Of a DNA stretch of 40,549 nucleotides, positions 14,833-30,961 are shown one piece after another. The DNA comes from Burkholderiales bacterium (GTDB lineage: Bacteria; Pseudomonadota; Gammaproteobacteria; Burkholderiales; Burkholderiaceae_E), in assembly GCA_020248665.1 (NCBI GenBank), contig JADCHE010000092.1, positions 1 to 40,549 on the forward strand, in the 5' to 3' direction. The notes beneath the pieces are model-generated. The model did no database searches, was not told where the DNA came from, and saw nothing but the letters and a program-made list of their open reading frames with translations. How positions within the stretch are numbered: position 1 is the first letter of the stretch; the number at the start of each line of letters is the position of its first letter. The position numbers were made by a program, and so were the translations under genes.

Positions 14833-15798
14833 TCAGCGCCGGAAGTCGCGGAACACCGTGTCGGGCGCGCCGAGGTTGTGATCCGACGGCGCCTCGCGCC
14901 CGAAGCGCGCGCTCGAGGCCGTGAAGCCGCCGAAGCCGAGGATCGGCGCGCGGACGGCCGCGGGCCCGTCCGCCGGATGGCGCGCGATCGCGACGTCGGC
15001 ATTGTCCTCGCGCACGAACATCGAGCGCAGCGCCGCGAACGGGCGGCCCGCCGGTACAGGCGGGTCGATCGTCACCGCGAGTTCGGTGCGCGCGGCGTCG
15101 GCCGCGACGATCGCGAGCGTGCCCCGACGGCCGTCGGCGAACGCGAGCGTGAAGGTCAGCGTCGCCGGGTCGATATCGACGCGGCGCAGCGCGACCATCG
15201 GCCGGCCGCGCTCCTCGATCGGCCCGACCAGGAAGGAACTGCCGTACGCGGTGTCGGGCAGGTGCGCCGGCGGCAGCGGCTTCGCCCGCCAGTAGCCGTC
15301 CGACGGGTACAGCACCAGCATCTCGACGTCGCGCGGCGGGCCGCGCCGGATCACCTGCACAAGGTGCAGGCCGGGCTCGGCGCGGTCGCCGATCCGCAGG
15401 TCGACGACTTCCGGCCGCCAGAAGGTCTCGAACGCGTGGCCCACGATCCGCAGCCGCGCGTCCTCGTGCAGCACCACCGTGCGCGGCACGAACCGGTGCA
15501 CCGGGTCGCCCGACATGTCGCAGTCGGTGAAATCGGGCGCGGAGCGCTCCTCGGCGACCGACGCGATGTACGGCGGGTGCTCGGCGACGATGCGGAACGA
15601 CGCGATGCCTTCGCCGATCACCGGCACGTGGACGTTGTCCTCCTCGGCGCAGCGCGTCGGCCGGCTCGCGTCGACGAAGCGCACCTCGACGGGCGCGCGC
15701 GGCGCGCCCGGCGCCACGCATCCGGCCAGGCCCGCCGCGAGGCTCGCGACGAGCCCCAGCGCGGCGACCGTGCGCCGAGGGGTGCATGCGCACCTCAT
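14833..15798 (-). CDS. Lipoprotein of unknown function
   Basis: A 321-residue protein from ATG 15798 (an upstream ATG at 15846 would add 16 basic residues). The signal peptide ends in the lipobox LAGC with Cys27. The mature part has no motif I recognise. It contains DCDMSGDPVHRFVPRTVVLHE, AFETFWRPEVVDLRIGD and a Gly-rich end GFGGFTASSARFGREAP. It has a paired Cys in the N-terminal half and reads as a periplasmic beta-rich protein. It is convergent with mhpA and divergent from the creatininase-family gene, so its context says nothing clear about its role. Confidence 0.7.
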   Translation of the reverse strand: MRCACTPRRTVAALGLVASLAAGLAGCVAPGAPRAPVEVRFVDASRPTRCAEEDNVHVPVIGEGIASFRIVAEHPPYIASVAEERSAPDFTDCDMSGDPVHRFVPRTVVLHEDARLRIVGHAFETFWRPEVVDLRIGDRAEPGLHLVQVIRRGPPRDVEMLVLYPSDGYWRAKPLPPAHLPDTAYGSSFLVGPIEERGRPMVALRRVDIDPATLTFTLAFADGRRGTLAIVAADAARTELAVTIDPPVPAGRPFAALRSMFVREDNADVAIARHPADGPAAVRAPILGFGGFTASSARFGREAPSDHNLGAPDTVFRDFRR

Positions 15799-15881
15799 CG
15801 CGCGCGCCGCCCGCCGGCGGCCGCGCCGCGGATTATCCTTGGCCATCGCCGCGCCCGCGGCGTCCCGACCGGATCCGCACC

Positions 15882-16697
15882 GTGACCGACCGACATCGAC
15901 GCTGGGCCTCGCTGACCTGGCAGGAGTTCGCCGCGCTCGACGCGGCGCGGACCGTGGCGGTGCTGCCGGTCGCGGCGATCGAGCAGCACGGCCCGCACCT
16001 GCCGCTGGAGGTGGACGCCACGATCGTCGGCGGCGTGCTCGACGCGGCGCTCGCGCGCACCGCGCCGGACACGACGGTGCTGACGCTGCCGCCCTGCCCC
16101 GTCGGCAAGAGCGACGAGCACCTCGCCTTCCCGGGCACGCTGACCCTCGGCACCGACACGCTGATGCGGCTCTGGTACGAGCTCGGCGAGTCGGTGCACC
16201 GCGCGGGGCTGCGCAAGCTGGTGATCGTCAACGCGCACGGCGGCCAGGGCCACGTCGCGCGGATCGTGTCGCAGGACCTGCGGGTGCGCCTCGGCATGGT
16301 CGCGGTGGCCGCGAACACCTACGGCTTCGGCGAGCCGGCGGGTCTGTTCCCCGAGGCCGAGACGCGCCACGGGATCCACGGCGGCGCGATCGAGACCTCG
16401 CTGATGCTGCACCTCGACCCCGTCGCGGTCCGCCGCGAGCGGATCGCGGACTTCCCGGCGGCGTCGGCCGCGCTCGAGGCGCGGGGCGGCGAGCTGCGCT
16501 TCCACGGCAACGGCGCGCTCGCGTGGGCGACGCAGGACCTCAACCCGGAGGGCGCCTGCGGCGACGCGCGGCTCGCGAGCGCCGAGGCCGGCGGCGCGAT
16601 CGTCGCGCACGCGGCGGGCCGCCTTGCGCGGCTGCTCGACGAGGTCGCCGCCTACCCGCTCGAGGCGCTGCGCGATGCGCCGGCACCGCGCCGCTGA
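15882..16697 (+). CDS. Creatininase-family amidohydrolase
   Basis: A 271-residue protein from GTG 15882. Creatininase-fold metal motifs are evident: VAAIEQHGPHLPLEVD at the N-terminus, SDEHLAFPGTLTL, VNAHGGQGHV and HGIHGGAIETSLML. Members open cyclic amides or deformylate: creatinine amidohydrolase, mycofactocin peptidase MftE, and the archaeal FAPy deformylase ArfB of flavin/F420 biosynthesis. The gene lies close to ribA and a RibD-type reductase, which makes an ArfB-like or ring-opening role worth considering, but no sequence feature here proves the substrate. The only in-frame upstream start adds a Pro/Arg-rich segment and was rejected. Confidence 0.85.
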   Translation: MTDRHRRWASLTWQEFAALDAARTVAVLPVAAIEQHGPHLPLEVDATIVGGVLDAALARTAPDTTVLTLPPCPVGKSDEHLAFPGTLTLGTDTLMRLWYELGESVHRAGLRKLVIVNAHGGQGHVARIVSQDLRVRLGMVAVAANTYGFGEPAGLFPEAETRHGIHGGAIETSLMLHLDPVAVRRERIADFPAASAALEARGGELRFHGNGALAWATQDLNPEGACGDARLASAEAGGAIVAHAAGRLARLLDEVAAYPLEALRDAPAPRR

Positions 16698-16711
16698 CGG
16701 GCCGCGCCAGC

Positions 16712-17260
16712 TCACAGCATCCGCCGCAGCACGCCGTCGCGCTTGAAGAAGTGGTGGTGCAGCGCCGCGCCCGCGTGCGCGGCGATCAGCGCCGCCATCG
16801 CGATGCCGAGCGCCCCGTGCAGCGCGAACGCCTGCTCGGCGAGCGCACGGTCCTGCGCGACCAGCGGTGGCAGCACGAACAGGCCGAACACGCTGATCGG
16901 CGCCCCGTAGGCCGAGGTCGCCCACCAGCCCACCAGCGGCATCGCGAAGAGCAGCGCGTACAGCGCGACGTGCACCACGTGCGCGATCGCGCGCTGCCCG
17001 GCCGGGACGGAGGCCGGCAGCGGCGGCGGCGGGTGCGCGAGGCGCCAGCCGAGGCGCACCGCGGTCAGCACGAACAGCAGCACGCCGGTCGAGCGATGCA
17101 GCAGGAAGCCAGCGTCCTGGATCGGTCCGGGGGGCAGCGACAGCAGCGAGAAGCCCGCCGGGATCATCGCGATCACCAGCAGCGCGGTGCTCCAGTGCAG
17201 CGCGCGCGCGACGCCGCCGTGGCGGCCGGCCGGAGCGGCGTCCACGTCAGCCGACCGCAC
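16712..17260 (-). CDS. Cytochrome b561-family membrane protein
   Basis: A four-helix membrane b-type cytochrome of 182 residues. Helix I has ALHWSTALLVIAMIPAGF, helix II LLHRSTGVLLFVLTAVRLGW, helix III VVHVALYALLFAMPLVGWW and helix IV HGALGIAMAALIAAHAGAAL followed by HHHFFKRDGVLRRML. One His per helix is available as heme ligand. The family transfers electrons from quinols to periplasmic acceptors. The start is GTG 17260 (overlapping ribA by 14 nt) or GTG 17245 (1 nt after the ribA stop); neither has a clear ribosome binding site, so it is probably coupled to ribA. A redox link with the MDR enzyme or ribA pathway is only inferred from position. Confidence 0.85.
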   Translation of the reverse strand: MRSADVDAAPAGRHGGVARALHWSTALLVIAMIPAGFSLLSLPPGPIQDAGFLLHRSTGVLLFVLTAVRLGWRLAHPPPPLPASVPAGQRAIAHVVHVALYALLFAMPLVGWWATSAYGAPISVFGLFVLPPLVAQDRALAEQAFALHGALGIAMAALIAAHAGAALHHHFFKRDGVLRRML

Positions 17261-18398
17261 GCAGCGGCAGGTCGCCCATCAGGTGGCCGGCGCGACGGCG
17301 CTTGGCCTCCAGGTAGCCGCGATTGCGCACGCCGACGGGCGCGAGCAGCGGGATGCGCTCGCGCACGTCGATGCCGGCCGAGCGCAGCGCGGCGAGCTTC
17401 GAGGGGTTGTTGGTCAGCAGCGCCACCTCGCGGATGCCCACCGCCTCGAGCATCGCCGCGGCCACGTCGTAGCGGCGCTCGTCGGTCTCGAAGCCGAGCG
17501 TGGTGTTCGCGTCGACGGTATCGAGGCCCTGCTCCTGCAGACCGTAGGCGCGCATCTTGTTCGCCAGGCCGAGGCCGCAGCCCTCCTGCGCGAGGTACAG
17601 CAGCGCGCCGCCGCCGAGCGCGGCGATCTTCGCGAGCGCCATCTGCAGCTGGTCGCCGCAGTCGCAGCGCAGCGAGCCGAACGCGTCGCCGGTGAGGCAG
17701 GCCGAGTGCAGCCGCACCGGCACCGGGCCGCGGGTGTCCGGGCGGCCGACCACGATCATCGACCAGTGCTCGCCGAGCTCGTCGCGGAAGACGACCAGCT
17801 CCGCGTCGGACACCGCTCGCATCGGGACGGGCGCGCTCGAGACGCGCCGCAGCGAGCGCGCGTGCCCCGCGCGGAACGCGAGCGCCGCCTCGGCGTCGAC
17901 GCGAGCCAGCTCGGCGGTGTCGCCGGCGGCGGCGGGCACCGACACCACCGCGGGCAGCAGCTTCGCCAGCTTGACCAGCTCGATCGCGGCGTCGGCCCCG
18001 AGGTCGGCGCGCACCGGCGGCGCCGGCGACGCGGCGCGCGCGCCGGCGGCGAGCGCCATCAGCGCGTGCGGGCCGAGCGCGCGCGGCAGCGCGATCTCGG
18101 ACACCTCGGCGAGCCCGCCGAGCGCGGCCGCGCGCGTGGCCGACACGACCAGCGTCGGGGCGCCGGCCTCGTGCAGAGCCGCGAGGCCGGCCGCATCGAG
18201 CGACTCGACCGGCACGACCAGCCGATCGGTCGCGCCCGGGGCGGCGACGACGATCGGCCGGCCCGCGAGCAGATCGCCGATCGCGCGACGGATTCCGACG
18301 CGCGCGTCGCGCGCGAGCAGGCGCGACAGCCAGGGGACGCGGATCGGAGGCGTCCCTTCGGAGCCTTGCGGACGGGACGACGGGACGGGGACATGCAT
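17247..18398 (-). CDS. ribA: GTP cyclohydrolase II with N-terminal extension
   Basis: Converts GTP to 2,5-diamino-6-ribosylamino-4(3H)-pyrimidinone 5'-phosphate, the first step of riboflavin synthesis. It is 383 residues from ATG 18398, against about 196 for E. coli RibA. Residues 1-185 form an extension like that of alphaproteobacterial-type RibA. The catalytic domain (about 190-375) has the zinc cysteines Cys234, Cys245 and Cys247 in HSACLTGDAFGSLRCDCGDQ, and the active-site DER in GFETDERRYD (Asp306, Arg308). The usual QEGRGIGL is here QEGCGLGL, with Cys274 in place of Arg. The gene is divergent from the RibD-type reductase (72 bp apart) and is followed by cytochrome b561. No ribBA/ribE/ribH gene is present, so the housekeeping pathway must lie elsewhere and this copy may serve a special product. 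Confidence 0.88.
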   Translation of the reverse strand: MHVPVPSSRPQGSEGTPPIRVPWLSRLLARDARVGIRRAIGDLLAGRPIVVAAPGATDRLVVPVESLDAAGLAALHEAGAPTLVVSATRAAALGGLAEVSEIALPRALGPHALMALAAGARAASPAPPVRADLGADAAIELVKLAKLLPAVVSVPAAAGDTAELARVDAEAALAFRAGHARSLRRVSSAPVPMRAVSDAELVVFRDELGEHWSMIVVGRPDTRGPVPVRLHSACLTGDAFGSLRCDCGDQLQMALAKIAALGGGALLYLAQEGCGLGLANKMRAYGLQEQGLDTVDANTTLGFETDERRYDVAAAMLEAVGIREVALLTNNPSKLAALRSAGIDVRERIPLLAPVGVRNRGYLEAKRRRAGHLMGDLPLRAVG

Positions 18399-18470
18399 GG
18401 GGGTGTTCCAGGAGGTACGGCGTGACGTGCCATCATCGCCCGGATCGAATTCCCGAGTGGGGCGTCGGAC

Positions 18471-19280
18471 TTGTCCCTGCAGTCGAACGACGGCCACGTC
18501 GAGGCGCCCTCCGACGCGGCCTGGCGCCGCGTGCTGGCCGCGCGGGGCACCGGCACGCTCGGCGGCGGCGTTGGCGCGCGCTCGCGCGCGCTGTTCGGGC
18601 CGCTGCTGGCCGCGCCCGGCGAGCGGTTCGCGATCGGCCAGCTCGGGCAGTCGCTCGACGGGCGGATCGCCACCTCGACCGGGCACTCGCACTACGTGAA
18701 CGGTCGCCCCGCGATCGTGCACCTGCACCGCCTTCGTGCGCTGGTCGATGCGGTGGTGGTGGGCGTCGGCACGGTCGTCGCCGACGACCCGGCGCTGACG
18801 GTACGGCACGTCGAGGGCGACAGCCCCGCACGCGTCGTGGTCGATCCGCGCGGCAGGATGCCCGCGGCGGCCCGCCTGCTGGCCGACGACGGCCGCCGGC
18901 GGCTCGTCGTCATGCGCCCCGGGGTCGCGTCGACGCTGCCGCACGGCGTCGAGCGGATCGAGCTCGCCCCCGGGGCCGATGGCCGGATCCCGCCGGCCGC
19001 GATCGTCGACGCGCTCGCGGCACGCGGCCTGCCGCGGCTGCTCGTCGAGGGCGGCGCCGCGACGGTGTCGGCCTTCGTCGAGGCGCGCGCCCTGCACCGG
19101 CTGCACGTCGCGGTCGCGCCGCTGCTGATCGGCTCGGGTCCGACCGGGCTGGTGCTGCCGCCGATCGACCGCCTCGACGACGCGCTGCGCCCGCGCGCGC
19201 GCTGCTACGCGCTCGGCGAGGACGTGCTGTGGGACCTGGAGCTCGCGTCCGCGGGCGGGACCGCGAACAGGTCGACGTGA
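18471..19280 (+). CDS. Stand-alone RibD C-terminal-type pyrimidine reductase
   Basis: A 269-residue protein of the RibD_C/dihydrofolate reductase-like family. It has QLGQSLDGRIATSTGHSHYV, VVGVGTVVADDPALTVRHVE and LLVEGGAATVSAFVEARALH. Such proteins reduce the ribosyl side chain of the diaminopyrimidine to ribityl with NADPH. The deaminase half of bacterial RibD is absent, as in fungal and archaeal reductases that act before deamination. The start is TTG 18471: an in-frame stop at 18423-18425 and no ATG leave little choice (GTG 18531 is the alternative). Its 3' end overlaps the convergent methyltransferase by 76 bp. Pairing with ribA supports a role on the product of GTP cyclohydrolase II. Confidence 0.82.
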   Translation: MSLQSNDGHVEAPSDAAWRRVLAARGTGTLGGGVGARSRALFGPLLAAPGERFAIGQLGQSLDGRIATSTGHSHYVNGRPAIVHLHRLRALVDAVVVGVGTVVADDPALTVRHVEGDSPARVVVDPRGRMPAAARLLADDGRRRLVVMRPGVASTLPHGVERIELAPGADGRIPPAAIVDALAARGLPRLLVEGGAATVSAFVEARALHRLHVAVAPLLIGSGPTGLVLPPIDRLDDALRPRARCYALGEDVLWDLELASAGGTANRST

Positions 19281-20062
19281 CCGACGACCAGCGTCGAGGC
19301 GCCGGCGTCGATCGCGGCGAGTCGCCGCGCGTGCCACGCGTCGAGCGCCGCGCCGTGCACCCGCCCGGTCTCGGCGACCGCGTCGCGCCAGCCGCCGACC
19401 AGCCTGCGCTGCAGCTCGGCGTCGTCGGCGCCGAGCCGCCAGTCCGCTCGCGCCCGGGCGACCGAGTAGCCGGCCGCGCGCAGTCGGCGCGCCGCCGCGT
19501 CGGCGGCCGCCGGCCCGAGCGCGCCGCCGAGGCCCTTGTCGCCGCGCTGGTGCGCGTCGAACGCCGCGAGCACCTCGGCATCGAGCGGGTCGTGCGGCGC
19601 GCACGCGACCCGGCCGTCGTAGCTGAGCGCCGCGTACACCGGACGCCGATGGCGGCGCAGCGCCTCGACCCAGCGGGCGAGCCAGTCGTCGGACACCAGG
19701 TCGAGGAAGGCCGAGGTCGCGACCAGGTCGGCGTCGAGCGCGAGCACCGCATCGAGCCCGGTCGCGAGGTCCGCGCGCAGCGTCTCGAACTGCAGCGATC
19801 CGGCCGCCTGCGCGCCTTCGGCCGCCCGCGCGGCCCGCGCGAGCAGCGCGTCGTCGTGGTCGACAAGGCGCCAGGCCTGCGGGCCGGCGAGCCGCGGCGC
19901 GATCGCGCGCAGCGTGGAGCCGGTGCCGCAGGCGAGGTCGGTGATCGTCGGCCGCCCGACGTGCGCGAGCAGCGCGGCGGCCGCGTCGAGCAGGCCCGGG
20001 TCGCGGGCGCGGTGATCGGCCGGCTCTCGCAGCGCGAGCCAGTCGGCGGCGAACCCGCTCAC
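19205..20062 (-). CDS. Class I SAM-dependent methyltransferase
   Basis: A 285-residue protein from GTG 20062, which overlaps the stop of the glycosyltransferase as GTGA. Motif I is ITDLACGTGSTLRAIAPRL, followed by WRLVDHDDALLARA, and an acidic DLVATSAFLDLVSDDWLARW segment for the later strands. The natural fold seems to end near GHVDLFAVPP; about 20 further residues run across the 3' end of the convergent reductase. The acceptor cannot be read from sequence, but co-transcription with glycosyltransferase, PTPS-like and MDR genes suggests tailoring of a small molecule. Confidence 0.82.
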   Translation of the reverse strand: MSGFAADWLALREPADHRARDPGLLDAAAALLAHVGRPTITDLACGTGSTLRAIAPRLAGPQAWRLVDHDDALLARAARAAEGAQAAGSLQFETLRADLATGLDAVLALDADLVATSAFLDLVSDDWLARWVEALRRHRRPVYAALSYDGRVACAPHDPLDAEVLAAFDAHQRGDKGLGGALGPAAADAAARRLRAAGYSVARARADWRLGADDAELQRRLVGGWRDAVAETGRVHGAALDAWHARRLAAIDAGASTLVVGHVDLFAVPPADASSRSHSTSSPSA

Positions 20063-21105
20063 CGCGCCTGCTCCAGCGCGTCGGCGACGCGTGCGGCGGT
20101 GTCGGCCCAGCGCGGCTGCGCGGCCGCCGCCACTCGCGCCGCCGCGGCGAGCCGCGCGCGCGCGTCGCGGTTCTCGACCATCGTGCGCAGCGCCGCGCGC
20201 AGCGCACCCGGGTCGTCGGGCGGCACCAGCAGGCCGGCGCCCGCGGGCACCGCCTCGGGGATCGCACCCGCGGTCGTGCCGACGACCGGCAGCCCGCGCG
20301 CGATCGCCTCCGCGTAGGCCATGCCGTAGCCCTCGTGCCGGGACGCGAGCACGAACGCGTCGGCGCCCGCCCACAGCGCGTCGAGCGTCGCGCCGTCGAC
20401 CGCCCCGGCGAGCGCGATCCGGTCGGCGAGGCCGGCCGCGGCGATCCGCGCCCGGAGCGCGTCGGCGGTCCGCGGATCGCGCGTGTCGTCGCCGACGATC
20501 GTCAGGCGCCATCGCGCGTCGCGCAGCCCGGCCAGGGCGTCGACCAGCCGATCGTGCCCCTTGCGCGGCACCAGCGTGCCGACCGACAGCAGCGCGACCG
20601 CGTCGCCGCCGCTGCCGCGCGACCGGGGCGCCGGGTCGGTGCCCGGCGGCGCGACGACGATCCGCGACGCGGGCACGCCGTAGTCGGCGGCGAGCGTCGC
20701 CGCGGTGGCGCGGCTGGTCGCCACCACGCGCCGCGCGCAGGCGAGCGCGCGACGCTCGGTCTGGCGCAGCGCGGCGGCCCGCGGCGCGGCGAGCCCGGTC
20801 TCGAGCGCGAGCGGATGGTGGACCAGCGCGACCAGCGGCCGCGCGGCCCCGATCGCCGCCCCCACGTCCGGCATCGCGCCGAGCGCGAGGCCGTCGACCA
20901 GCAGCGGCACCCCCTCGGGCTGCGTGGCGAGCGCAGCGTAGGCCTCGTCGAGCGCGCGCGTGTCCGGCGCCGGGAACGCATCGGGCAGCCGCAGCCGCTC
21001 GAGCGTCCAGCCGGCCCGCACGAGCTCGGCCGCGACGCGACGGTCGTAGCCGTAGCCGCCGGTCGGCGTGTCCGGGTCGCCGGGCACCGCGAGCACCGCG
21101 CGCAT
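20059..21105 (-). CDS. Glycosyltransferase family 4-type
   Basis: GT-B glycosyltransferase, 348 residues from ATG 21105. The C-terminal half has LLSVGTLVPRKGHDRLVDAL, WRLTIVGDD, and the nucleotide-sugar site AFVLASRHEGYGMAYAEAIA followed by GLPVVGTTAGAIPEAV, with the EX7E-type glutamates. The N-terminal acceptor half begins RAVLAVPGDPDTPTGGYGYD and holds LVALVHHPLALETGL. Ten nt separate it from the PTPS-like gene and it overlaps the methyltransferase gene by GTGA. The sugar and acceptor are unknown; in context the acceptor could be a ribityl-pyrimidine or pterin rather than a glycan. Confidence 0.85.
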   Translation of the reverse strand: MRAVLAVPGDPDTPTGGYGYDRRVAAELVRAGWTLERLRLPDAFPAPDTRALDEAYAALATQPEGVPLLVDGLALGAMPDVGAAIGAARPLVALVHHPLALETGLAAPRAAALRQTERRALACARRVVATSRATAATLAADYGVPASRIVVAPPGTDPAPRSRGSGGDAVALLSVGTLVPRKGHDRLVDALAGLRDARWRLTIVGDDTRDPRTADALRARIAAAGLADRIALAGAVDGATLDALWAGADAFVLASRHEGYGMAYAEAIARGLPVVGTTAGAIPEAVPAGAGLLVPPDDPGALRAALRTMVENRDARARLAAAARVAAAAQPRWADTAARVADALEQAR

Positions 21106-21115
21106 CGCCGCGGCC

Positions 21116-21517
21116 TCAGCCGATCGGCGCCTCGTACCACGCCCGCGCGACGTGCGACTCCGACAGCGTGACGCGCAGCGACGCGAGGTCGGCCTCGTCG
21201 CGGCCGAGGCCCGCGCCCCGGCAGTGCCGCGCGAGCTCGCGGTGCACGTGCGCGGCGAGGAACTCGGTGGTGGTGTTCTGCCCGGCGAACTCGGGCATCT
21301 CGTCGAGGTTGCGGTACTCGAGCGGCGCGAGCACCGCGCGCAGCGCGTCGGTGGCGCGGCCGATGTCGACGACCAGGCCCTGCGCGTCGAGCGTCCTCGC
21401 GAAGAACGCCGCGTCGACGACGAAGGTCGCGCCGTGCATCCGCTGCGCGGGTCCGAAGACCTCGCCGCGGAAGCTGTGGGCGATCATGATGTGGTGGCGG
21501 ACCTCGACGGCGAACAT
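21116..21517 (-). CDS. 6-pyruvoyl-tetrahydropterin synthase / QueD-family homologue with altered active site
   Basis: A 133-residue tunnelling-fold protein (T-fold) from ATG 21517, with GGAG 4 nt upstream. The alignable landmarks are IAHSF (His14), MHGATF (His28), LVVDIGRAT, LEYRNLDEM, NTTTEFLAAHV and SESHVARAWYEAP. Typical PTPS/QueD proteins have Cys-x3-His-Gly-His and an active-site His in LDHxxLN. Here the Cys position is Ala24, the third zinc His is Ala30, and LDH has become LEY, so the usual catalytic and zinc residues are partly lost while the substrate-side Glu residues of NTTTEF and SESH remain. It probably binds a pterin-like or pyrimidine substrate but by different chemistry. It sits between MDR (48 nt) and GT (10 nt). 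Confidence 0.8.
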   Translation of the reverse strand: MFAVEVRHHIMIAHSFRGEVFGPAQRMHGATFVVDAAFFARTLDAQGLVVDIGRATDALRAVLAPLEYRNLDEMPEFAGQNTTTEFLAAHVHRELARHCRGAGLGRDEADLASLRVTLSESHVARAWYEAPIG

Positions 21518-21565
21518 GGGGCTCCTCGCGCGATGCGGCGGGTGGGTTCTCGGATTCTCGCGGAT

Positions 21566-22558
21566 TCAGGCGTAGGCGACGACCGGGCAGGCCGCGTCGG
21601 CCCCGGGCGCGAGCAGCGCGGGCAGCGCGTCGGGCAGCGTCGCGAACGGGCGGTCGCGCTCGAGCAGCGCGTCGAGCCGCTCGTCGGCGAGCAGCGCGAG
21701 CGCCTTCTCGAGGCGGCGACGGTGCGGCCAGCGCGCGCGCATCGCCGGCGCGACGCGGCCGACCTGGCTGCCGACGATCCGCAGCCGGCCCGAATGGAAG
21801 CTGCCCCCGAGGCGCACGCCGACGCCACGGTCGCCGTACCAGCTGAGCTCGACGACGGTCGCCTCGTCGCCGGCGGCGGCGAGCGCGGTCTCGAGCCCCG
21901 CCTCCGTCGCGCTCGCGTGGAACACGAGATCGCAACCGGCGGGCGCCGCGTCCGGCGTGGCGAACGCGACCCCGAGCGCCGCGGCGAGCAGCGCGCGGGA
22001 CGCCCGGACGTCGACCAGCGTCACCTCCGAGCCGGGCAGGAGCGCCGCGAGCCAGGCGGTCAGCGCGCCGACCGTGCCCGCGCCGATCACGGCGATCCGT
22101 GCGCCGGGCAGCGCCGCGCCGTCCCACAGCGCGTTCAGCGCGGTCTCGGCGTTCGCCGCGAGCACCGCGCGGCGCGCCGGCACGTCCGCCGGCACCGGCA
22201 CGACCGCGTCCGCCGGCAGCACGAACGCGTCCTGGTGGGGATGCAGCGCGAACACGTCGCGGCCGAGCAGCGCGGCCGGTCCGTCGACGACGGTGCCGAC
22301 CGCGGCGTAGCCGTACTTCACCGGGAACGGGAAGTCGCCCTCCTGGAACGGGGCGCGCATCCGCTCGCGCTCCGGGGCCGGCACCGCGCCGGCGAAGACC
22401 AGGCTCTCGGTGCCGCGGCTCAGCGCCGACCAGCGCGTGCGCACGAGCACCTCGCCCGGCCCGGGACGTCGCAGCGGCGCGGGGCGCAACTCCGCGCGGC
22501 CGGCGGCGACGTACCACAACGCGCGTGCCGGTGTCGTCTGATCGGGAACGGAGGTCAT
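21566..22558 (-). CDS. Medium-chain dehydrogenase/reductase-like protein without zinc ligands
   Basis: A 330-residue MDR-superfamily protein from ATG 22558, the first gene of the leftward MDR-PTPS-GT-MTase operon. The N-terminal catalytic-type domain reads VRTRWSALSRGTESLVFAG, then FPFPVKYGYAAVGTVV; zinc ADHs have Cys and Gly-His-Glu at these places, here Ser and Gly-Tyr-Ala. The cofactor fold has IAVIGAGTVGALTAWLAALL (about 152-171). Later landmarks are CDLVFHAS, VVELSWYGDRGV and FHSGRLRIVGSQVG. The SALSRGTES pattern recalls BchC-type dehydrogenases. It is likely a NAD(P)-dependent oxidoreductase acting on a product of the neighbouring genes. Confidence 0.82.
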   Translation of the reverse strand: MTSVPDQTTPARALWYVAAGRAELRPAPLRRPGPGEVLVRTRWSALSRGTESLVFAGAVPAPERERMRAPFQEGDFPFPVKYGYAAVGTVVDGPAALLGRDVFALHPHQDAFVLPADAVVPVPADVPARRAVLAANAETALNALWDGAALPGARIAVIGAGTVGALTAWLAALLPGSEVTLVDVRASRALLAAALGVAFATPDAAPAGCDLVFHASATEAGLETALAAAGDEATVVELSWYGDRGVGVRLGGSFHSGRLRIVGSQVGRVAPAMRARWPHRRRLEKALALLADERLDALLERDRPFATLPDALPALLAPGADAACPVVAYA

Positions 22559-22608: not shown

Positions 22609-24471
22609 ATGCCGCCGAGCTTCACCACGAGTCTTCCGATGCGATCAGCCTCCTCCGCCGACGCCCCCCCCGCGCGCGCCGGCGCCCCCGCGATGCGCGC
22701 CCGCCGCCTCACCTTCCTCGCGCTCGTCGTCGCGACCGTCGCCGCGCTCGCGGCGCTGATGGTCCGCGCGCTCGACGCCGACGGCCTCGACGCGGTCGAC
22801 TGGGCCATGCTCGCCGCGTTCGCGGTCACGCTCCCCTGGACGGCGGTGGGCTTCTGGAACGCGGTGATCGGCCTCGTGCTGATGCTCGCGCACCGCGACC
22901 CGGCCGCGGTCGCCACGCCGGTCGCGGCGCTGGGCCTGGAGCCGGTGCCGCTCCACACCCGGACCGCGCTGCTGGTCTGCATCCGCAACGAGGATCCGCA
23001 GCGCCTGGAGCGCAACGTCGACGCGATGCTGTCGGGTCTGGCCGCGCTGCCCGAGGCGAGCCGGCTCGAGCTCTGCCTGCTCAGCGACTCCGACCGCGCC
23101 GACCTGCTGCCCCGCGAGGCCGCGGTCGCGGCCGCGCTCGCGCGCCGCCACGGCGCGGCGCTGCCGGTCAGCTACCGCCGCCGGACCGACAACGCGGGCT
23201 ACAAGGCCGGCAACCTGCGCGAGTTCTGCGAGCGGCGCGGCCGCGAGTTCGACTTCGCGGTCGTGCTCGACGCCGACAGCGTGATGAGCCCCGCGGCGAT
23301 CCTGCGGCTGATCCGCGTGATGCAGGCCGACCCGCGGCTCGGCATCGTGCAGTCGCTGATCGTGGGGCTCCCGAACGCGAGCCCGTTCGCGCGCACGTTC
23401 CAGTTCGGCATGCGCCTCGGCATGCGCTCCTACACCCTCGGCAGCGCCTGGTGGCAGGGCGACTGCGGCCCGTACTGGGGCCACAACGCGATCCTGAGGC
23501 TCGCGCCCTTCACCGAGCATTGCGCGCTGCCGCGGCTGCCCGGTCGCGGCCCGCTGTCCGGCCCCATCCTCAGCCACGACCAGGTCGAGGCGGTGCTGAT
23601 GCGCCGCGCCGGCCACGAGGTCCGCGTGCTGCCGCTCGAGGAGGGCTCGTGGGAGGAGAACCCGCCGACGCTGCTCGAGTTCGTGCGGCGCGACCTGCGC
23701 TGGTGCCAGGGCAACATGCAGTACGGCCGCCTGCTCGGGCTGTCCGGGCTGCACCCGCTCGGCCGCGTGCAGCTGCTGCTCGCGATGCTGATGTTCGTCG
23801 GCTCGCCGGCCTGGATCGCGTTCGTGCTGCTCGCGACCTTCCGCGACCTGATCCTGCCCGCGGACGGGCCCGCGTTCCGTGCCGACGTCGGCGGCCTGCT
23901 GTTCGTGATCGTGCTCGGCATGGCCTTCGCGCCGAAGATCGCGAGCGTCGTCGCCGCGCTCGCGAGCCGCGCGCGACGGCGCGAGTTCGGCGCGCCGCCG
24001 CGCTTCCTCGCGGGGGTCGCGCTCGAGACCGTGTTCTCGATGGCGCTCGCACCGGTGATGGCGGTCGCGCACACGGTGTTCATCGCGGGGCTCGCGTTCG
24101 GGCGCACGATCGGCTGGACCTCGCAGGTGCGCGACGGCCACGTGGTGCCGCTCGGCGCCGCGCTGCGGGCACTGTGGATCCCGACGCTCGTCGGCGCGGC
24201 GCTGCTCGCCTGGTTCCTGCGGACCGTGCCGGTGCACGCGCTGTGGTTCGCGCCGTTCTGGGCGCCGCTGCTGCTCGCCGCGCCGTTCGCCTCGCTGACC
24301 GCGTGGCCGGCGCTCGGCGGCGCGATGGTGCGCGCCCGGATCGCCGCGATCCCCGAGGAGATCGCGCCGCCCCCCGAGCTGCTGCGGCTCGATCTGCCGG
24401 CGCTCGCCGCGCACGACCGGGGCGACGACCCCGACGAGGACGGCACGCTCGCGCCGGCCGCGCGGTCGTGA
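22609..24471 (+). CDS. opgH: Membrane glucosyltransferase of the OpgH/MdoH type
   Basis: Builds beta-glucan backbones of osmoregulated periplasmic glucans from UDP-glucose at the inner membrane. It is 620 residues from ATG 22609 (Met11 and Met29 are alternatives). The GT2 domain has LCLLSDSDRAD (about 156-165), LDADS (about 220-224), SHDQVEA (Asp324) and RRDLRWCQGN (about 360-369), the D,D,D,QxxRW-type set. Membrane segments lie at about 33-52, 66-93 and in the C-terminal third. OpgH usually pairs with periplasmic OpgG; none is present here. It overlaps the next gene by GTGA and is divergent from the MDR operon across only 50 bp. Confidence 0.86.
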   Translation: MPPSFTTSLPMRSASSADAPPARAGAPAMRARRLTFLALVVATVAALAALMVRALDADGLDAVDWAMLAAFAVTLPWTAVGFWNAVIGLVLMLAHRDPAAVATPVAALGLEPVPLHTRTALLVCIRNEDPQRLERNVDAMLSGLAALPEASRLELCLLSDSDRADLLPREAAVAAALARRHGAALPVSYRRRTDNAGYKAGNLREFCERRGREFDFAVVLDADSVMSPAAILRLIRVMQADPRLGIVQSLIVGLPNASPFARTFQFGMRLGMRSYTLGSAWWQGDCGPYWGHNAILRLAPFTEHCALPRLPGRGPLSGPILSHDQVEAVLMRRAGHEVRVLPLEEGSWEENPPTLLEFVRRDLRWCQGNMQYGRLLGLSGLHPLGRVQLLLAMLMFVGSPAWIAFVLLATFRDLILPADGPAFRADVGGLLFVIVLGMAFAPKIASVVAALASRARRREFGAPPRFLAGVALETVFSMALAPVMAVAHTVFIAGLAFGRTIGWTSQVRDGHVVPLGAALRALWIPTLVGAALLAWFLRTVPVHALWFAPFWAPLLLAAPFASLTAWPALGGAMVRARIAAIPEEIAPPPELLRLDLPALAAHDRGDDPDEDGTLAPAARS

Positions 24472-29273: not shown

Positions 29274-29600
29274 TCAGGCCCCGTCCGCGACCTCGGCGTC
29301 CCCGAGCGGGCCGTGCTGCTGCGCGCCGTAGACGTCCCGGTCGAAGGCGGACCCGCTGCCGTGGGACCCCCAGCGGCGCGGCATGCAGACCTTGATCGCG
29401 CGCACGCGGTCGAACGCGATCACCCGCACCCGCTCCCCAGGCGTGTCGTAGAGCGCGCCGATGCGCTCGGGCGTCATCGCCGACGCGCCGAGCACACGGC
29501 GGTAGTTCGACTCGTCGTCGAACATGATGTCGATGGTGATCTGGAAAGGGCCCGCGTTCTTGCTGCGCAGCACGGTGGCCAGGTCCTGGATACGGGGCAT
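29274..29600 (-). CDS. DUF4387 family protein
   Basis: A 108-residue protein from ATG 29600 whose start overlaps the AtuA-family stop as ATGA. It reads LATVLRSKNAGPFQITIDIMF, then FDDESNYRRVLGAS and VRVIAFDRVRAIKVCMPR with an Asp/Gly-rich end. This is DUF4387, a family that is commonly found directly after AtuA-like proteins. No catalytic residues are known to me. It is the last gene of the SBP-amidase-amidase-AtuA operon and is convergent with the desaturase gene, 33 nt away. Confidence 0.87.
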   Translation of the reverse strand: MPRIQDLATVLRSKNAGPFQITIDIMFDDESNYRRVLGASAMTPERIGALYDTPGERVRVIAFDRVRAIKVCMPRRWGSHGSGSAFDRDVYGAQQHGPLGDAEVADGA

Positions 29601-30961
29601 CACACCGTCTCCATGTGCACGGGGAACAGCGCGAGCGGGTCCGGCGTGTCCATCAGGTGATAGACGCTGAACTCGAACACCTCGCCCGCGGCGACGTCCG
29701 ACGGCGAGAACGGGAACGCGAGGTTGCCCGCCGTGGTCTTTCGGCCGGGAAACGGACAGTGCAGCGTCGACGATCGGGCGAGCGACAGCACGTGGCTGGC
29801 GAGCTCCTGCGTCCTCGCGACGACCTCGATCAGCAGGCCGACCTCGTGCGGCACGCGGTGGCGCTCGGGCTCGAGCGCGCCGAGCACGCCGTCGCGGCCG
29901 TAGACCCGGAAGTCGAGCGCGTAGCCGGACTCGTCGACGTCGACGCCGAGGTTGCGGCGCACCGCGGCCCGCACCGCCTCCTCGATCACCGGCAGGTTCT
30001 CGATCACGGTGCGGTCGCGGATGCCGGCGACGGTGAACGCGCGGAAACCGAGGCTGCGTGCGCCTTCGAGCTTCACGGTCAGCCGCCGGGCCGGCAGGAA
30101 GCGCGATCCGCTCACGCGCACCGTCTGCCGGTCCACCTGCTCGAAACGCGCCTCGCTCATGTCGACGTCGCCCTCGGGCTCGTAGAGCATCAGCGGATGG
30201 CTCTGCTCGTACATGGTGTGCGCGGCCACCGACTCCGGTGAGACGACGCGGTGGGGCGCGAGCGGTCGGATCAGGAAGTGGTCCCGGCGGATCGTGCCCA
30301 GCAGGCAGTCGTTGGGCGCGAGCGGCAGCGCGCACTGCGCGCCGCATTCCATTATCTTCGCCATGTGCAGCGCGAGGCCCGGGTCGTAGCCACGAGCGAT
30401 CGGCAGTGCGGCGTAGATCGCGGTGTCGCAGGCGCGGCCCGCGAGCACGACGTCGGCCCCCTGCGCCAGTGCGTGCGCCAGCGGCTCGGTGCCCATCTGC
30501 CCGACGATGCGCACGCTGCCGCTCACGGCCGACTCCGACAGCTCGCCGACGTCCGGCATCGGTCGGATGGCCCCCGCACGCAGCGCGTCGAGCACCACCT
30601 GCCGGTCGATCTCCGAGGCGATGGTCGCGAGCTTGAAGTGCAGGCCGTGCGCGCGCGCCTCCTCGAGCAGCAGACCGCGCACGAGCGCCAGGTGCGGGTT
30701 GCCGCCGCCCATGCCGGCCGAGCCGATCACCAGGGGCACGCCGGCCTCGCGCGCCTTGCGCAGCGCATATGACAGGTCGCGCCGCACCTGCGCGTCGCGC
30801 ACCAGCGACTGACCGGCTCCGAGGTAGTACGGTCCGGGATCGGTGGAGCCGGCGTCCACGCCCATCAGGTCCGGGGCTTGCGCCACGCCGTTGTCGAGGC
30901 TCGAGAATTCGTAGCCGTAGCCGAGCATGCCGTTGACGGCGACGATCCTGAGTTCTTCCAT
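29600..30961 (-). CDS. AtuA-family (DUF1446) protein
   Basis: A 453-residue protein from ATG 30961. Family landmarks are VNGMLGYGYEFSSLDNG, VDAGSTDPGPYYLGAG, PLVIGSAGMGGGNPHLALV, ADVVLAGRACDTAIYAALP, ECGAQCALP and FRAFTVAGIRDRTVIENLP. AtuA was named from acyclic terpene utilisation in Pseudomonas; its reaction is unknown to me. The constant partner DUF4387 follows with ATGA overlap, and an amidase ends 14 nt upstream. In this operon it may act on the acid or CoA ester released by the amidases. Confidence 0.88.
   Translation of the reverse strand: MEELRIVAVNGMLGYGYEFSSLDNGVAQAPDLMGVDAGSTDPGPYYLGAGQSLVRDAQVRRDLSYALRKAREAGVPLVIGSAGMGGGNPHLALVRGLLLEEARAHGLHFKLATIASEIDRQVVLDALRAGAIRPMPDVGELSESAVSGSVRIVGQMGTEPLAHALAQGADVVLAGRACDTAIYAALPIARGYDPGLALHMAKIMECGAQCALPLAPNDCLLGTIRRDHFLIRPLAPHRVVSPESVAAHTMYEQSHPLMLYEPEGDVDMSEARFEQVDRQTVRVSGSRFLPARRLTVKLEGARSLGFRAFTVAGIRDRTVIENLPVIEEAVRAAVRRNLGVDVDESGYALDFRVYGRDGVLGALEPERHRVPHEVGLLIEVVARTQELASHVLSLARSSTLHCPFPGRKTTAGNLAFPFSPSDVAAGEVFEFSVYHLMDTPDPLALFPVHMETV

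Follow-up and report, generated by a model that had tools for sequence, protein, structure and literature searches.

Introduction

The PTPS-IV type of the 6-pyruvoyltetrahydropterin synthase (PTPS) family is recognised by its signature motif FGPAQ, which is given in the passages on this type in PMC5445326 and PMC5041015. The former, in its part on PTPS-IV, places 561 sequences in one cluster-node and describes a gene neighbourhood with the families PF00925, which is called GTP cyclohydrolase I there, and PF01872. A neighbourhood containing both families was here found in a Burkholderiales bacterium (GenBank assembly GCA_020248665.1) on contig JADCHE010000092.1, of which positions 1 to 40,549 of the forward strand (40,549 nucleotides) were analysed and are called the window. 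The PTPS-IV gene at 21116-21517 belongs there to a larger cluster with genes for a medium-chain dehydrogenase/reductase (MDR), a glycosyltransferase (GT), a methyltransferase (MT), a GTP cyclohydrolase II (GCH II, RibA), a stand-alone RibD-type reductase (RibD_C) and a membrane glycosyltransferase of the OpgH type.

A preliminary description of the window had named most of these genes and called the locus undescribed. Pfam and NCBIfam matches were obtained for the named genes at their positions, and the genes form a real unit. The claim of novelty holds in that no account of the cluster's product was found in the literature searched, but PTPS-IV with PF00925 and PF01872 appears in the PTPS-IV part of PMC5445326 and the structure of the homologue SCO6650 has been solved. 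The link between PTPS-IV, GCH II and RibD_C is already in print in that part of PMC5445326, and the alternation of two membrane modules reported below is the new point. The locus represents a real, conserved and uncharacterised pathway, of which published work on PTPS-IV has noted a part, and it is on balance probably a dedicated biosynthetic unit for one GTP-derived, 2-amino (pterin-like), glycosylated and methylated, membrane-handled molecule.

A conserved four-gene core

The core genes form a leftward operon on the minus strand, as had been described, in which the MDR dehydrogenase gene (21566-22558, alternative open reading frame (ORF) start 22582) is followed by the PTPS-IV gene (PF01242, 2.3e-22), a GT4 glycosyltransferase gene (20059-21105; PF00534, 9e-30; nearest solved chain 7qsg, 2e-16) and a gene for an S-adenosylmethionine-dependent methyltransferase (19205-20062; PF13649, a weak match of 1.5e-6). 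The first two gaps measure 48 and 10 bp, and the GT and MT genes overlap by 4 bp (GTGA). None of Pfam's MDR families passes for the MDR protein; its best NCBIfam match is bchC (1.9e-11, 43.6 bits vs a cut-off of 291), and the alignment of 15 MDR rows contains no invariant cysteine that could be the catalytic zinc cysteine of a zinc MDR alcohol dehydrogenase.

Gene content was compared in 80 named loci, the best 80 of at least 576 MDR-profile matches and a sample that favours close kin; 50 of them were well covered, their MDR gene having 9 kb or more of sequence downstream and 6 kb or more upstream. Counts obtained with profiles were adopted (PTPS in 74 and RibD_C in 46 of the 80 loci, vs 75 and 48 with tblastn). 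Near the MDR gene, PTPS was found in all 50 well-covered loci, GT in 49 (73 of the 80 named loci) and MT in 49 (72 of 80). The order MDR-PTPS-GT-MT was uninterrupted in 44 of the 50 and 64 of the 80 loci; the six well-covered exceptions have MT past OpgH (2), RibD_C after MDR (2), no GT (1) or no MT (1). Conservation of the neighbours in relatives, on which the preliminary description had made its proposal depend, was thereby found for the core (49-50 of 50 loci) across phyla and domains. Around the core, the well-covered and named loci contain OpgH (36 of 50, 61 of 80), RibD_C (34 of 50), RibA (25 of 50, 33 of 80), cytochrome b561 (20 of 50, 25 of 80), an exported protein of the 14833-15846 family (15 of 50, 23 of 80), a CDP-alcohol transferase (13 of 50, 14 of 80), a creatininase (12 of 50, 14 of 80) and an LPG-synthase-TM protein (12 of 50, 12 of 80). 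MDR-PTPS-GT-MT make up the core, with RibD_C as a common companion and a private ribA, cytochrome b561 and creatininase as optional ones; the six genes whose co-occurrence was expected earlier are not all obligatory.

The same picture was obtained when the PTPS gene was the starting point. PTPS matches at E≤0.001 were present in 19 of 61 genomes (own genome included), 17 of them at 1.2e-34 or better, and around these 17 strong PTPS genes MDR and GT were found in 17 of 17 cases and MT in 16, the remaining one lying on a short contig. In a sample of the phylum, the true PTPS-IV family (≤7.4e-44) was present in 19 of 299 genomes, own genome included; the PTPS-IV loci viewed there had MDR and GT in 4 of 4, RibD_C in 3 of 4 and MT in 3 of 4 cases. 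As a control, 8 of the 55 genomes of this sample with PTPS matches between 1e-15 and 1e-20 were viewed. A diverged form of the cluster in such genomes was rejected, as all eight proteins have the CxxxHGH motif of canonical QueD, and none of the eight loci had a cluster MDR, RibD_C, OpgH or CDP-alcohol transferase nearby; a generic GT occurred in 2 of 8 and a weak MT match in 1 of 8. The control is a modest one, with 4 of the 8 genomes from one family and some flanks short.

Two membrane modules that replace each other

Divergent from the MDR gene lies an OpgH/MdoH-type gene for a membrane GT2 enzyme (22609-24471, plus strand; NCBIfam PRK05454.2-6, 2.6e-210, 699.9 bits and thus below the cut-off of 884). 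It had been overlooked in the preliminary description and is part of the unit. In the 80 named loci OpgH occurs alone in 57, a CDP-alcohol transferase alone in 10, both in four loci of Halomonas and neither in nine; in one of these nine, L060, the transferase lies just outside the fetched flank, beside ribA and an LPG-synthase-TM gene, and the locus was labelled CDP-type. The four Halomonas loci were labelled CDP-type ahead of the MDR tree, and the OpgH tree later bore this out.

In the OpgH tree, for which 6 of 73 matches were dropped (5 with a score below 400, 1 as a second match in its locus), 63 cluster rows are separated from 9 others with 100% local support, and 54 of the 57 OpgH-only loci fall within the cluster side. 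The nine comparison rows comprise five beside opgG and the four of Halomonas; they are not independent, since L135 and L120, and likewise L136 and L078, come from the same genome each, and L073 and L098 stand without an opgG adjacency lookup. In two Halomonas genomes (G069, G082) opgG adjoins the cluster. The Halomonas copies are ordinary opgH genes and, because their products fall outside the cluster branch, no locus holds both modules. Cluster OpgH differs from other OpgH at 9 sites (at 95% or more), and the GT2 motifs around D156, DAD (217-219), HD (319-320) and RxxRW, to which we assign their usual roles in GT2 enzymes, are retained in both groups. The OpgH gene was seen in two arrangements: it either points away from MDR or lies upstream of it in the same orientation, accompanied by the exported protein and RibD_C.

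The exclusion extends to whole genomes. The comparison covered the window's genome, 8 relatives and 23 of the 80 named genomes; the CDP-alcohol transferase subfamily (≤3.3e-51) was found in 7 of 7 CDP-type and 0 of 17 OpgH-type genomes, and in none of the 8 relatives, which lack PTPS-IV and gave generic matches only. The OpgH of the window is the only one found in its genome (97.55% complete), in which no MdoG match, the OpgG partner of an OpgGH system, was detected; counting the window's genome, 7 of the 17 OpgH-type genomes lack opgG/MdoG. On the MDR tree (102 of 102 rows kept) the OpgH and CDP-alcohol transferase states require 4 changes. Cluster-tied OpgH is a separate OpgH subfamily and is mutually exclusive with a special CDP-alcohol phosphatidyltransferase, which is reported here as new. 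Because two unrelated membrane enzymes replace each other, their swap suggests a shared need for membrane attachment or passage of the product, and the alternation is a hint to where the product sits.

The PTPS-IV protein

Residues 21-25 of the window PTPS are FGPAQ, the PTPS-IV signature, and the CxxxHGH motif of QueD (PTPS-I) is replaced in it by HGA without the motif cysteine. Among 95 PTPS rows (2 of 97 were dropped for scores below 60), HGA in place of HGH was counted in 92 and FGPAQ in 90. The glutamate retained in PTPS-IV is presumably the pterin-anchoring glutamate of its relatives. HxH is kept in two deep rows, from Haloarcula (L126) and from the relative L037, and one further row is a fragment. 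Loss of the zinc motif perhaps happened within an already existing cluster, because on the MDR tree a fully supported branch sets these HxH rows and L122 apart from the rest. A diverged sister cluster in the order RibD_C-MDR-PTPS-MT-CDP transferase-GT, with the HxH motif, was seen at L037 (8195-13095), in a relative of the window's family.

The family profile identified the window PTPS as orthologous to Streptomyces coelicolor SCO6650 (PDB 3d7j, 1.4e-55; next solved sequence 3.3e-8). PTPS-IV is the sole PTPS-family match in the window's genome, where, at the completeness given above, a QueD gene may lie in a gap. As a side observation, QueC is present in this genome (G000:C171:4131-4778) although its sole PTPS-family match is the zinc-poor PTPS-IV. 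The SCO6650 structure is said to contain no zinc. In 12 of 13 inspected plasmid loci with an annotated PTPS the protein is labelled 6-carboxytetrahydropterin synthase, the queuosine enzyme, a label at odds with a PTPS-IV type that lacks HGH.

GTP cyclohydrolase II and the stand-alone reductase

The RibD_C gene (18471-19280, plus strand; start uncertain, TTG) converges on the MT gene with a 76-bp overlap of their ends and is divergent from ribA (17247-18398, minus strand; PF00925, 8.3e-53, ORF taken from 18425), as had been stated. RibD_C matches PF01872 (2.8e-34, 119.1 bits vs a cut-off of 24.1); its nearest solved chain is 6p8c, a 2,5-diamino-6-ribosylamino-4(3H)-pyrimidinone 5'-phosphate reductase (1.3e-25), and it is closest to the stand-alone diaminopyrimidine reductases, which act before deamination. 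Since its kin act at that stage, a 2-amino, pterin-like core is favoured.

In the alignment, cluster RibA retains the zinc cysteine ligands, the tyrosine and the DxR motif, and we take the cysteine triad with the Tyr, Asp and Arg to be the functional residues of GCH II. The protein carries the residues of a GCH II, an activity predicted here from its sequence. Over its N-terminal half it can be aligned with the RibB part of a second copy in the genome (on C5), but this half is degenerate: the acidic EGD motif is absent and the protein thereby lacks the intact RibB domain of a bifunctional RibBA. The genome contains three GCH II genes, of which the C5 copy is a fusion with a RibB-type part, so the cluster ribA is not the only one; a sole ribA serving riboflavin synthesis had been named in the preliminary description as a point that could overturn its proposal. 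The third copy (G000:C148:11183-11638) is of a distant type (1.8e-14), and similar weak matches occur in several relatives. As had been noted for ribE and ribH, neither was among the Pfam matches of the 25 different window ORFs scanned.

Distribution of the cluster

The cluster was found in Pseudomonadota, Actinomycetota and haloarchaea. MDR-PTPS-GT with MT, or with an unnamed gene in the MT place, lies on plasmids of Methylosinus, Agrobacterium, Streptomyces, Thiodictyon, Microbacterium, Neorhizobium and Rhizobium, and the loci of Streptomyces fungicidicus and Amorphoplanes share the MDR-PTPS-GT-MT core. MDR with an annotated PTPS was present in 6 of the 7 haloarchaeal loci inspected; in Haloarcula pelagica and H. 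halophila the GT lies upstream on the opposite strand, and at the Natrarchaeobaculum locus MDR is accompanied by GTP cyclohydrolase IIa alone. GTP cyclohydrolase IIa adjoins MDR in 3 of the 7, with an eighth case known from a listing alone. This enzyme (PF05165 in L126) is unrelated to bacterial GCH II and yields the same kind of intermediate.

Transfer of the cluster between lineages is likely, because on the MDR tree the window and G007 group with the alphaproteobacterium Vineibacter (support 88, below the 95 mark), away from five other rows of the same genus, which are placed in a set with support 98. Separately, a locus labelled Methylopumilus (L063) is nearly identical to an Alcaligenaceae row (L075), and its bin is likely mislabelled. 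A product-less pathway common to Proteobacteria, Actinomycetota and haloarchaea would be a gap in basic metabolism.

Optional genes and other features

The end of ribA overlaps the start of a cytochrome b561 gene (16712-17260, minus strand; PF01292, 9.5e-32), and an optional creatininase-family amidohydrolase gene lies next to it (15786-16697, plus strand; PF02633, 4.5e-69). Creatininase is also present in 12 of the 33 loci with a core-adjacent RibA. In S. fungicidicus, where a creatininase adjoins, RibA has methionine where the window has tyrosine, a replacement that presumably marks a variant retaining the formyl group; this is the sole Met among the aligned cluster RibA rows. That the creatininase removes the formyl group from what a Met-type RibA makes was rejected as a general rule, since RibA has Tyr in the 33 core-adjacent loci (32 by motif; L067 gave a false motif match and has Tyr in the alignment).

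A conserved exported, lipoprotein-like protein, optional with OpgH-type clusters, is encoded at 14833-15846 (minus strand) and has a lipobox-like LAGC. It matched nothing in Pfam at 0.01, shares 55-65% identity with counterparts in 6 relatives, and its weak, mostly beta fold model (pLDDT 59) had no PDB match at E≤0.001. It may be a periplasmic partner of cluster OpgH. De novo clustering of the neighbourhoods returned families of 42, 29, 28, 19 and 13 loci that may be known genes or shadow ORFs; it also gave a family of ABC-transporter ATPases, present in 18 loci, and unidentified families of 7-12 loci each. Elsewhere in the window, a DUF4387 protein is encoded at 29274-30347 (minus strand), downstream of AMP-binding and acyl-CoA dehydrogenase genes.

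Proposed pathway and alternatives

Beyond the observed gene content, conservation, orthology, subfamily split and mutual exclusion, a dedicated unit of the kind favoured here would work as follows. RibA would open GTP to 2,5-diamino-6-ribosylamino-4(3H)-pyrimidinone 5'-phosphate, and the stand-alone RibD_C would convert the ribosyl to a ribityl chain without deamination, leaving the 2-amino group in place (pterin-type, not lumazine-type). PTPS-IV, a tunnelling-fold protein with one zinc ligand and the catalytic Cys lost and the Glu kept, and the MDR enzyme would form or modify the ring or side chain, after which GT4 would attach a sugar and MT a methyl group. The membrane module would act last, as cluster OpgH here and elsewhere as the CDP-alcohol phosphatidyltransferase, often with an LPG-synthase-TM-type protein. 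The recruitment of unrelated GTP cyclohydrolases to the same cluster, II in bacteria and IIa in haloarchaea, supports this pathway. That the product is a glycosylated, methylated pterin- or flavin-like molecule, as the preliminary description had proposed, can fairly be inferred from sequence. A more specific picture is tentative and held with low confidence: the product may be a hitherto unrecognised, widespread and membrane-bound 8-ribityl-pterin-type (2-amino) cousin of the flavins, glycosylated and methylated. Depending on the organism, the CDP-alcohol transferase might tie it to a phospholipid or a repurposed OpgH might glucosylate or export it, and it might serve in the membrane or periplasm as a cofactor for redox reactions or light absorption that is linked to cytochrome b561.

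Several observations weigh against this pathway as far as the GTP cyclohydrolase and reductase are concerned. Of the 13 cluster-bearing close relatives, counting the window's own genome (G000), only G000 and G007 gave GCH II matches as strong as that of the window (175-181 bits). In each of the remaining 11 a single match reaches 117-142 bits, to which 8 of them add a weak one (E of 1e-12 to 1e-16, or a fragment). Because most cluster-bearing relatives show no second strong GCH II, the enzyme may be shared with riboflavin synthesis, or a different precursor may be used. Nor is a strong GCH II score a marker of the cluster, because 6 relatives without it reach 186-235 bits. In 3 of 23 named cluster genomes the search turned up a single GCH II, and 16 of the 50 well-covered loci showed no RibD_C close to the core. 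The private ribA is dispensable or lies outside the minimal unit.

With ribA away from the core in 25 of the 50 well-covered loci, and a PTPS fold, GT and MT present, the cluster could be read as making a canonical 6-substituted tetrahydropterin glycoside, for which the pterin glycosides of cyanobacteria are the model; GTP cyclohydrolase I would supply the precursor, PTPS-IV would act as PTPS, GT and MT would decorate the product and ribA would be a passenger. We consider this unlikely, given that HGA replaces HGH in nearly all PTPS rows with the motif Cys absent, that no GTP cyclohydrolase I was among the Pfam matches of the 25 window ORFs, and that RibD_C and two unrelated types of GTP cyclohydrolase recur with the cluster. 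It is decidedly improbable that a spare, unrelated riboflavin supply (ribA, RibD_C) lies beside a glycolipid or capsule operon (MDR, GT, MT): RibD_C adjoins the core in varied gene orders in Alpha-, Beta- and Gammaproteobacteria and in Actinomycetota, and the genome has a separate RibBA-type gene, even though in the window ribA and RibD_C stand outside the core operon and other loci may lack them.

Modification of osmoregulated periplasmic glucans, with opgH central and the other genes adding a substituent, would suit the 57 of 80 loci with OpgH and without the CDP-alcohol transferase near the core. This is a very doubtful explanation, as opgG is absent from the window's genome and 6 more of the 17 OpgH-type genomes, the CDP-alcohol transferase replaces OpgH in other genomes, and cluster OpgH forms its own subfamily. 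A pathway related to deazaflavin (F420), to which a remark on archaeal PTPS-IV in PMC5041015, given there as unpublished, would point, has the slimmest chance of all, since its ligase (PF01996) was found in no more than 6 of 24 cluster genomes, the window's own not being among them.

Comparison with known systems

The description of the PTPS-IV neighbourhood in section 19 of PMC5445326 names no MDR, GT4, MT, OpgH, CDP-alcohol transferase or pathway. SCO6650 of S. coelicolor, the orthologue of the window PTPS, is an uncharacterised PTPS homologue, and the actinobacterial clusters of S. fungicidicus and Amorphoplanes have the CDP-alcohol transferase and not OpgH as in the window. With QueD (PTPS-I, queuosine) the window PTPS shares the Pfam family and the fold and differs by HGA for HGH and by the missing motif Cys. 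With OpgH/MdoH the cluster enzyme shares the GT2 motifs, but it stands on a separate branch, and opgG is absent from 7 of the 17 OpgH-type genomes. The first two steps are shared by homology with riboflavin synthesis, through RibA and RibD in bacteria and through GTP cyclohydrolase IIa and a reductase in archaea; compared with riboflavin RibD, cluster RibD_C is without a deaminase domain, and it occurs in a genome that carries a separate RibBA-type gene.

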